Below are positions 34,471 to 39,673 of a stretch of 39,962 nt of DNA, one piece after another. Origin of the DNA: a virus; IMG/VR virus record IMGVR_UViG_3300021479_000043, positions 1 through 39,962 of that record; one strand, 5' to 3'. A program made the position numbers and the translations under genes. Below the pieces are notes generated by a model. The model made no database searches, was not told the origin of the DNA, and saw nothing but the letters and a program-made list of their open reading frames with translations. Position 1 is the stretch's first letter. Each line of letters starts with the position of its first letter.

Positions 34471-35151
34471 TTATGCTGCTAATGCACTCAAACGAGTACA
34501 TAGAAGGTTTCGGATCGCTGTATCCTGAGTGATGGCCTGTGCCTGACTGAAGCGAACCGCTAAAGTACAGTTTTGAGCCAACATTCCAGAATAGTATTCG
34601 TCACGATAAATCAGTTTCATGGAATCTCCATCCTGATTTATGTGAGTGACTGCCTGTTTACCCAGAACAGTGTTGTAATATACGTCCGCCAATGTTCCAA
34701 GGTTATTTGTTGCAGCATTGCGCGCAACAGGACCCTCAGAGCTTGTCAATATACGAATATTGAACACATTACCCCACTCAGTCGGTAGAGCTGATGTATT
34801 CGACGCATATGACCACTGATTCAATACGCCAACATTACCCACTAATGCGTCAAAGTCCGACTGCAATTCTGTGCTAGATAGCATGAAATAGCAGTTACGA
34901 ACTGGACCTGTGCCGAATTTATCCATTCCAGGAATACCTGTCATGAACTTATAGGCATTGTTAGTGTCCAACGTAGTAGCCACAAGGCTAAAGTCGCTTG
35001 TCCCCAGGTTAGTAGGGTTAAAACCGTTACTTCCACCACCGGCATTTATCTCGGAAGCGGCTGAAACGATATAGTCGCGTAAAATTAAATCTTCTGCTTG
35101 ACGCATTGCCACAGCTAAACGCTCTGACACCCACGCCAAGACTCCTTCTTG
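34471..35151 (-). CDS. Major capsid protein, exon 3 (C-terminal two-thirds)
   Basis: 226 codons plus stop from CAAGAAGGAGTC. QEGVLAWVSERLAVAMRQAE, DLILRDYIVSAASEI, TLDTNNAYKFMTGIPGMDKF and TQDTAIRNLL place it in the N4-gp56-like major capsid family. The capsid has no start codon of its own here: translated from TTG at 35139 it lacks the N-terminal arm, which lies 1.4 kb upstream. The join is inferred to fall after a G at 35152 (or 35164, giving four more residues). It is followed directly by virion genes. Confidence 0.85.
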   Translation of the reverse strand, partial: QEGVLAWVSERLAVAMRQAEDLILRDYIVSAASEINAGGGSNGFNPTNLGTSDFSLVATTLDTNNAYKFMTGIPGMDKFGTGPVRNCYFMLSSTELQSDFDALVGNVGVLNQWSYASNTSALPTEWGNVFNIRILTSSEGPVARNAATNNLGTLADVYYNTVLGKQAVTHINQDGDSMKLIYRDEYYSGMLAQNCTLAVRFSQAQAITQDTAIRNLLCTRLSALAA

Positions 35152-35278
35152 CGAATTGTTACTCCTCTTACGAGGGGTGAAATCATTTCTGTTTCACTCT
35201 CATACTTTCGATATGAGACCCGACTATCGCTTTATCCGTACTAAGGATATCCAACCGCTTTAGTCTGTCAGCCCGAAC

Positions 35279-35307
35279 TTGACTTTAATCAATTCCATGT
35301 GTACACT
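35279..35307 (+). promoter_or_regulatory. Promoter for the antisense endonuclease gene
   Basis: TTGACT (35279-35284), a 17-base spacer and TACACT (35302-35307), 31 bases before the ATG at 35339 that follows AGGAGG. The gene can therefore be expressed independently of the capsid transcript. Confidence 0.6.
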
Positions 35308-35338
35308 AATTAATGAACCTGTAACCATAGGAGGTTTT

Positions 35339-35869
35339 ATGGAGTTCAATAACGTCGATCATAAACATAGATTTTATTATGAACCAAAAATTCACGATCC
35401 ACTGCATCTTGCATATCTTGCTGGAATTGTAGACGGAGAGGGTTGTTTTCATGCCTGTAAACTTAAAAACAAACCTGGAGACGGTTACAAAAACGGTCAT
35501 TATCGCGCTGTGCTTAAAGTTGCTAATACTGACAAACGTCTTTTTGATTGGCTTCAAGAAACATTTAGAGGTACTTGTTCCGCAGCTTTTAAAGAAACGC
35601 GTGATAAAACTCATCGCAGAGATTGTTATGAATGGGTTGTTACTGGACATAGACTTCTCGACATTAGTCGACAAATCTTGCCTTATTTGGTCATAAAAAA
35701 GCGACATTGCGAACTTGTGATTAAGTTTAGAGAAACTTTTCCCTTGAATTTGGGAAGAGGAAATCGGGAAATTACTCCAGAAGAATCTCTTCTTCGAGAG
35801 GATTGTATTGCCGAGATCAAAAAACTTAATGCTAGGGTTCGCGATATTCCGCATTGTAAAATCCTTTAA
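35339..35869 (+). CDS. LAGLIDADG homing endonuclease, antisense to its intron
   Basis: 176 residues from the ATG at 35339, five bases after a perfect AGGAGG; the frame is open to 35279 but that is not needed. LAYLAGIVDGEG is a good LAGLIDADG motif (residues 24-35), with Asp and Glu in place, and HRLLDISRQILPYL suits the second helix. One motif only, so a homodimer. The gene opposes the interrupted capsid gene and intron. Antisense endonuclease genes are uncommon in bacterial-phage introns. Confidence 0.9.
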   Translation: MEFNNVDHKHRFYYEPKIHDPLHLAYLAGIVDGEGCFHACKLKNKPGDGYKNGHYRAVLKVANTDKRLFDWLQETFRGTCSAAFKETRDKTHRRDCYEWVVTGHRLLDISRQILPYLVIKKRHCELVIKFRETFPLNLGRGNREITPEESLLREDCIAEIKKLNARVRDIPHCKIL

Positions 35870-36013
35870 GTTCTTGGCCCTTGTTTCCATGCCACCCATT
35901 AATTTGGGTGGTTTAGGGGTCCAAGTCGATTAGGTCGGATTTAACCAGGACCATTATACAGTAATCCTGGAGAATAACTTGATAATTTATTATGCAGCCA
36001 GTCTTGTAGACGC

Positions 36014-36106
36014 ATAATTCAAGTCACTCATTGTTTCGGCACCAGCTAAAAGACCGAAAAATGCCATTTGTGCGTCTATGATATCCCTTTGAGGCACTTG
36101 CGCTGG
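36014..36106 (-). CDS. Major capsid protein, exon 2 (small internal exon)
   Basis: 31 codons reading PAQVPQRDIIDAQMAFFGLL AGAETMSDLNY (first and second parts). PAQ...IDAQMAFFG fits the segment of N4-gp56-like capsids after the N-terminal arm. The reading frame stays open to 35990, where it stops, showing the intron border lies before that. The exon may end at 36053 (after FFG) instead if the P1 helix there is the true one; then about 13 residues are lost compared with usual spacing. The start follows TTG at 36107 and leaves the preceding DP in frame. Confidence 0.65.
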
Positions 36107-36129
36107 CAATCTGTTACTTGTTGACCAAG

Positions 36130-36146
36130 GTAAAGCGGCTTTACAT
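36130..36146. repeat. 19-bp palindrome, copy 3, in the intron
   Basis: GTAAAGCGGCTTTACAT, the inner 17 bases of the palindrome at 2526 and 4775; the outer left AT is AG here. Flanking CCAA/TTGG extends the stem. Confidence 0.75.
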
Positions 36147-36176
36147 TGGCGGGCCAAATCTTCTCAGCTGGCCTCT

Positions 36177-36443
36177 CTATGTCTCCATAGAGTTCGGAGT
36201 ACCGCATCGATTCATGTGATTTTTATCTGCAAAAATATGTTTATATTCTCCACATCCTGCACATTTCAAATACATGATATCGTCTTCTCGCTTACTGCTC
36301 TCAGGCTGCAAATTTTCACCGCAAAAAGGACAAAAACTTATCTTGAAATCCGTTAGAAATTCCGCATCTTTTTCATAAATCCATATAGAATTTCCTTCAA
36401 TTTCTACATCTACTAAATCTGTCTCTTTTTTACAGTTACACAT
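36177..36443 (-). CDS. Zinc-ribbon protein encoded in capsid intron 1
   Basis: 88 residues in the sense direction of the intron. CNC near the start, CPFCGEN (residues 38-44), KCAGCGEYKH and HMNRCG give six or more cysteines and two histidines, a double zinc site. It is not a recognisable homing endonuclease. GGGGCAAG lies upstream of its ATG. Its 3' end overlaps the hairpin CTCTATG/CATAGAG of the intron. Confidence 0.7.
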   Translation of the reverse strand: MCNCKKETDLVDVEIEGNSIWIYEKDAEFLTDFKISFCPFCGENLQPESSKREDDIMYLKCAGCGEYKHIFADKNHMNRCGTPNSMET

Positions 36444-36537
36444 TAACTTGCCCCTTGTTATCCTTTCTCAGCGATTATGCTGCGATTAGGAACTCCAAGT
36501 CAATCAGAGAAGATTTAAAGACCCCACAGTATTTTCT

Positions 36538-39568: not shown

Positions 39569-39673
39569 CACCAGAGGTAAGATTTGCACTTACGACCTCT
39601 CGTCCAAACGACCCAGATTCTGCATCTACATCCCTTGGAGTCATTGCGCTCTAACTAACTGAGCTACTCCGGC
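39569..39673 (-). tRNA. tRNA-like gene, anticodon region abnormal
   Basis: Acceptor GCCGGAG/CTCTGGT, D arm GCTC...GAGC, and a T arm GTAAG TGCAAAT CTTAC are clear and correctly ordered. Between D and T arms there are 54 bases rather than the usual 23 (37 in long-variable-arm tRNAs), and no 7-base anticodon loop with a paired 5-bp stem could be found. The 5' half reads like a tRNA-Ile/Met type. It is a broken, chimeric or interrupted tRNA. Confidence 0.4.

Follow-up and report, generated by a model that had tools for sequence, protein, structure and literature searches.

Group I introns with a homing endonuclease gene on the opposite strand, and phage genes holding several introns, have both been described. 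In mycobacteriophage LittleE, the major capsid gene holds a group I intron whose splicing was demonstrated by RT-PCR (PMC3706429; JF937101), and this intron carries a 177-aa, I-CreI-related LAGLIDADG gene on its bottom strand; the accessible part of that report describes one intron, mentions no mini-intron (here, a short insertion with group I splice sites and no catalytic core), and does not remark on its in-frame tail. The Didymium endonucleases I-DirII and I-DsqI are likewise encoded antisense within group I introns and a promoter of their own was proposed for them (PMC9548176, PMC3073962), although they belong to the His-Cys family and reside in nuclear rDNA, with no coding exon. Several group I introns in one phage gene, together with exon skipping, are known from phage Twort (Landthaler and Shub 1999, via PMC3073962 and PMC11878797), where the introns are full and the excerpts describe no core-less partner. 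Our literature search, covering open-licence papers, found no report of intron-encoded degrons or of core-less group I introns. Engineered trans-excision-splicing ribozymes, in which P1, P10, and a terminal G allow a group I core to cut out a segment that has no core, are a further point of comparison, but the case described here would be natural, with the guide inside the excised segment. The tmRNA (ssrA) tag places a C-terminal -AA on incomplete proteins, whereas the tails described below are encoded by an intron or a shifted exon frame rather than added by tmRNA. Phage T4 gene 60 contains a 50-nt insert that is bypassed by the ribosome.

The window analyzed in this study is an entire IMG/VR virus record of 39,962 bases, which encodes a P22-type portal and a terminase and whose head gene, on the minus strand, matches phrog_1357 (major head protein). 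The head protein had no match among the named phages searched, and more than 200 relatives of its gene are present in IMG/VR. Because a Parachlamydia MAG and a Chlamydiia MAG hold intron-bearing head genes of the window's kind, the phage host may be an environmental chlamydia. Our reading, to which we give a probability of about 0.75, is that this head gene contains a mobile group I intron with an antisense I-CreI-type gene, a core-less mini-intron served by the core of its neighbor, and degron tails. The first of these components belongs to an arrangement already known, since LittleE has the same layout, while the 50-base mini-intron and the "destroy me"-like tail peptide look new.

To define the splice sites, 94 head loci were aligned, with insertions allowed, to a profile built from 52 uninterrupted genes; the data are genomic, mostly metagenomic, and related loci are non-independent. 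A single-block alignment with no insertion was obtained for 61 of the 94 loci. The window head gene has three insertions, at 36107-36537 (431 nt), 36003-36052 (50 nt), and 35152-35963 (812 nt), all on the minus strand. Joining the remaining segments yields an open frame of 328 aa that matches intact genes; these segments are exon 1 (36750-36538, placed by alignment to uninterrupted relatives), exon 2 (36106-36053, PAQVPQRDIIDAQMAFFG) and the 39-nt exon 3 or "exon B" (36002-35964, TGCIINYQVILQD), both defined by comparison with intact relatives, and exon 4 (35151-34471), which carries the phrog_1357 match and is also placed by relatives. The initial annotation had taken 35152-36013 as one intron. 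This interval instead covers the 812-nt intron and the 39-nt exon and reaches into the terminal part of the 50-nt insert, and both exon 3 and the second insert had been overlooked. Gene finders that expect complete cores would miss the mini-introns and call such capsid genes broken. The head gene is an intron hotspot in general, with full group I introns at more than 12 sites (loci L009-L301, profile sites 23-426) and as many as five insertions in a single gene (L085).

The first insertion is a group I intron with a P1 of AGACCCU:GGGGUCU and a final G, and it contains a small zinc-ribbon ORF in the sense orientation (about 36177-36443, minus strand); similar small ORFs fill other head-gene introns, often extending into the P7 region (...PERSKRED). 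The main intron, at 35152-35963, has a P1 of CCAGGAU:GUCCUGG with a U.G pair, the U closing the 5' exon, a putative P3-P8 core whose P7 was read by eye as CAGACUA/UAGUC, and a final G. A search with Rfam at its gathering score did not detect a group I intron in the window; in L037, a relative that lacks the endonuclease, the alignment to the Rfam group I model runs end to end from P3 to P9, at 18.2 bits (cut-off 50, E 0.02). Compared with named phages by blastn, the intron of L009 had no match, and the matches of the L305 intron were limited to 50-nt core stretches. At the confidence given above for the whole account, the main intron of this phage head gene is best read as a mobile intron of group I, predicted to splice and to home. 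The intron core of L037 (5793-5905) also matches the Rfam LOOT RNA (RF03000) at 26.9 bits (E 0.003, below the cut-off), for which reason the LOOT family may include group I intron pieces.

The endonuclease that accompanies this intron is an antisense LAGLIDADG protein of the I-CreI/I-MsoI type, located in an extension of P6. Its gene, an ORF for 176 aa starting with ATG, occupies 35339-35869 on the plus strand, opposite to the head gene, and the P6 stem GAACUU (35868-35873)/AAGUUC (35275-35280), identified by eye, brackets it; L037 has a short hairpin at this position. The initial annotation was right on both the orientation and the placement in P6. The protein has a single LAGLIDADG motif (LAYLAGIVDGEG); Pfam LAGLIDADG_1 scores it with an E of 6e-4, just below the family cut-off, a profile search matches it to I-MsoI at 1.7e-5, and its AlphaFold model (pLDDT 76) matches I-CreI (E 3e-9, TM 0.63), so that both the one-motif architecture and the fold are of the I-CreI type. 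Its dN/dS of 0.05-0.12 indicates strong purifying selection, and the many uninterrupted head alleles are candidate targets for it. The antisense orientation is shared by the window's family, by L089-L094 (44% identical), and by L041, L062, and L077. In the head gene of L088 (sites 143-540), the endonuclease is apparently split by a frameshift, while the intron and mini-intron are kept.

A promoter for this gene, TTGACT-17-TACACT (35279-35307, plus strand), had been proposed. Promoter-like sites in the region number 7, with 7.9 +/- 2.7 expected, so that the match means nothing on its own; conservation speaks for part of it. The -10 box, TA[C/T]ACT, is present in eight of eight homologous genes (as TATACT in L087), preceded by a conserved CATGTG-like block, whereas a good -35 is found in the window and L086 only. 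The AGGAGG at 35329-35334 is perfect, as had been noted, but lies four bases before the ATG and not five, and among the eight homologues it is again restricted to the window and L086. Taken together, the conserved -10 box, the purifying selection, and the antisense orientation in relatives support the view that the endonuclease gene has its own, plausible promoter, from which it would probably be expressed independently of capsid translation.

A second property of this region concerns the strand opposite the endonuclease. The codons TTA, CTA, and TCA are absent from the 176-aa frame in the antisense endonucleases of the window's family, and the codon-aligned capsid-sense frame is therefore open; in the window it is stop-free codon on codon over the endonuclease, from 35306 to 35899 (minus strand), with AAAGGA followed by an ATG at 35852-35854. 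None of the 18 leucines of the window endonuclease is encoded by TTA or CTA, against a usual share of 46%. The three codons are used freely by the sense-oriented endonucleases of this head gene, and they are also avoided in most antisense LAGLIDADG genes at other loci, one of them of 299 aa; the exceptions are L119, L173, and one ORF of L144. For comparison, among 500 other genes in which at least five such codons were expected, 12 have one or none, and several of these are the same endonuclease loci. Many of the open sense frames start with an AAGGA-like site and an ATG. Stop-free sense strands opposite an endonuclease were seen in L030, L077, L078, L083, L085-L087, and L144, besides the window. 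The possibility that a functional protein is encoded opposite the endonuclease, on the capsid-sense strand, was considered and rejected, given that the mirror frame has a dN/dS of 0.8-1.7 and shows no purifying selection; for this reason, the better guess is that the capsid-sense strand stays open so that it can be translated, which might, for instance, counter Rho-dependent polarity or termination.

The 50-nt insertion at 36003-36052 carries the splice-site pairings of a group I intron: a P1 with the exon (UUUCGGU:GCCGAAA, IGS at 36034-36040), a P10 with the start of exon 3, and a final G. It has no catalytic core of its own, as its length (32-79 nt in relatives) leaves no room for P3-P8. At profile site 258, mini-introns of 35-79 nt are found in 14 distinct relatives, the window included, and others occur in the head gene at sites 269 (32 nt), 306 (46-47 nt), and 336 (36 nt). 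All 18 distinct mini-introns at these four sites, many of which are homologous and count as non-independent events, have a final G, a P1 of at least 6 bp, and a P10 of at least 4 bp; each begins after a U, its guide pairs with the 5' exon with a U.G at the site, and the adjoining 5' part pairs with the 3' exon. Over 16 distinct rows, pairing is kept in 97.4% of the P1/P10 cells and compensatory change is seen in 11 of 12 pairs, with a covariation of 0.711 versus 0.165 in shuffled alignments (none of 500 reaches the observed value) and at most 0.158 in slid registers. Even the third base of the Thr codon of exon B, which appears as ACT, ACA, ACG, or ACC, is matched in all four forms by its IGS partner. 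A "PX" hairpin between the 3' half of the mini-intron and exon B looks conserved at site 258, but we discarded it because single sequences do not score reliably above shuffles.

The peptide TGCIINEQVILQD of exon B is conserved in 12 of the 14 mini-bearing genes, with many synonymous changes; this conservation at the amino-acid level implies that exon B is retained in the protein and that the mini-intron must be removed. Downstream of every mini-intron, at a distance of 24-85 nt, the next insertion is a full intron that has a P1 of its own, and no lone mini-intron was found; in the window, the main intron follows after 39 nt. Most likely, judging from these sequence patterns, the mini-intron is excised by the core of the neighboring full intron, with a single core for both sets of splice sites. 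The main intron and the mini-intron would then act as one unit, in which the latter supplies its own guide (P1 with U.G, and P10) and terminal G but no ribozyme, and the neighbor's core catalyzes its removal. At site 258, L108 carries a full intron whose P1 is that of the mini-intron, so the mini-introns may be core-deleted descendants of full introns. Further mini-introns are likely in the divergent capsid genes of L186 and L207. A permissive scan for mini-introns in other genes has a false rate of 7%, and we therefore claim them for the head gene only.

When the exons are translated into the unspliced RNA, short in-frame tails appear. Reading on from exon 1 into intron 1 adds RKYCGVFKSSLIDLEFLIAA before a stop (36475-36537, minus strand), and reading from exon 2 into the mini-intron and the +1 frame of exon 3 adds LLAGAETMSDLNYASTRLAA (35990-36052, minus strand); their C-termini, RLAA and LIAA, are ssrA-like. 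Most group I introns are said to present a stop right after the 5' site (PMC3073962). Nearly all head-gene insertions from site 176 onward give tails ending in LAA, LVA, QAA, or close to these, and the tails arise in at least four different sequence contexts; insertions early in the gene lack them, as do main introns directly behind a mini-intron, which itself carries the tail. Considering the IMG/VR and genome matches to the intron core motif, the tail ends in [AV]A in 27 of 39 cases when a frame of at least 50 codons enters the motif, versus 7 of 85 otherwise (Fisher 6e-12); the background of such endings is 0.9%, and the tails have varied codons and stops. Nine mini-introns without an in-frame stop take their tail from the +1 frame of exon B, AC.GG..GC.TAA, a pattern present in one of the 61 intact genes. 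The in-frame tail of LittleE also ends in ...NSVATAAA before its stop, and the tmRNA tags of the two chlamydial MAGs, on whose contigs the intron family occurs, end in ELMAA and DLVAI. There are near misses, such as LLTA (L074) and LLAI (L014), and several other in-frame tails miss. The full-length head protein of the window itself ends in RLSALAA (34471-34485, minus strand), where most relatives end in LGV; an ALAA ending on the full-length protein, seen in the window as one of about 80 relatives, counts against reading the tails as tags. The tail is nevertheless most likely an ssrA-like degradation tag: ribosomes on unspliced RNA would read a short intron-encoded extension ending in LAA or similar, which would mark the truncated head protein for ClpXP-type proteolysis in the manner of the tmRNA tag.

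Other explanations were weighed for each of these components. The main ribozyme could use the 5' site of the mini-intron, so that exon 2 is joined to exon 4 and the head protein is 13 residues shorter; this joint is in frame, and group I exon skipping is reported for phage Twort (PMC3073962), but the amino-acid conservation of exon B, together with a conserved 3' G and a covarying P10 that would be superfluous for skipping, makes it quite improbable. The mini-intron as a segment bypassed by the ribosome in the manner of T4 gene 60 is extremely unlikely: the window insert is of similar length and is likewise a non-coding insert in a phage gene, but the lengths range from 32 to 79 nt, the codons before the 3' border (AAG, AGG, TAG, TTG) vary and differ from the take-off codon, and the P1/P10/G pairing fits splicing.

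As for the tails, several share the core text KSSLIDLELAA, and LAA often falls within the P4/P5 region, so part of the LAA signal could be RNA structure; that the tails as a whole are a by-product of conserved P4/P5 sequence, and not degradation tags, is nonetheless unlikely, as they are also found in the 5' part of the mini-introns and in the +1 frame of exon B, are built in one case (L077-336) from the exon residues ERLA plus an A and a stop, vary in codons and stops, and depend on the exon frame running in. We are similarly doubtful that splicing and capsid output are tuned by base pairing between the endonuclease transcript and the intron RNA. The gene is antisense, its -10 box is conserved, and its transcript, unless terminated early, would span the intron's 5' half; however, we looked for a conserved element for RNA-RNA control and found none, the visible effect on the strands is a mostly stop-free sense frame, which suggests that the sense RNA is translated, and an uncoupling of the endonuclease from the capsid transcript and its translation explains the antisense placement and is an equally simple reading.

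We retain the reading of a mini-intron served by its neighbor's core and of tails that act as degrons. In general terms, it is rather likely that phage capsid genes harbor satellite group I introns without a core, which bring nothing but a guide and splice sites and are cut out by the core of the next intron, together with an ssrA-like degron in the unspliced RNA, by which no stable truncated capsid protein would remain when splicing fails. If this is true, a natural group I ribozyme removes a second, core-less intron, a step toward the separation of catalyst and substrate that is often invoked for the origins of split introns and trans-acting splicing, and bacterial introns have a protein quality-control device of their own.

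Outside the head gene, the window contains a tRNA-like RNA at 39569-39673 (minus strand, 38.6 bits), which is missed by ARAGORN and has about 30 extra nucleotides in its anticodon arm; it is perhaps an interrupted tRNA.
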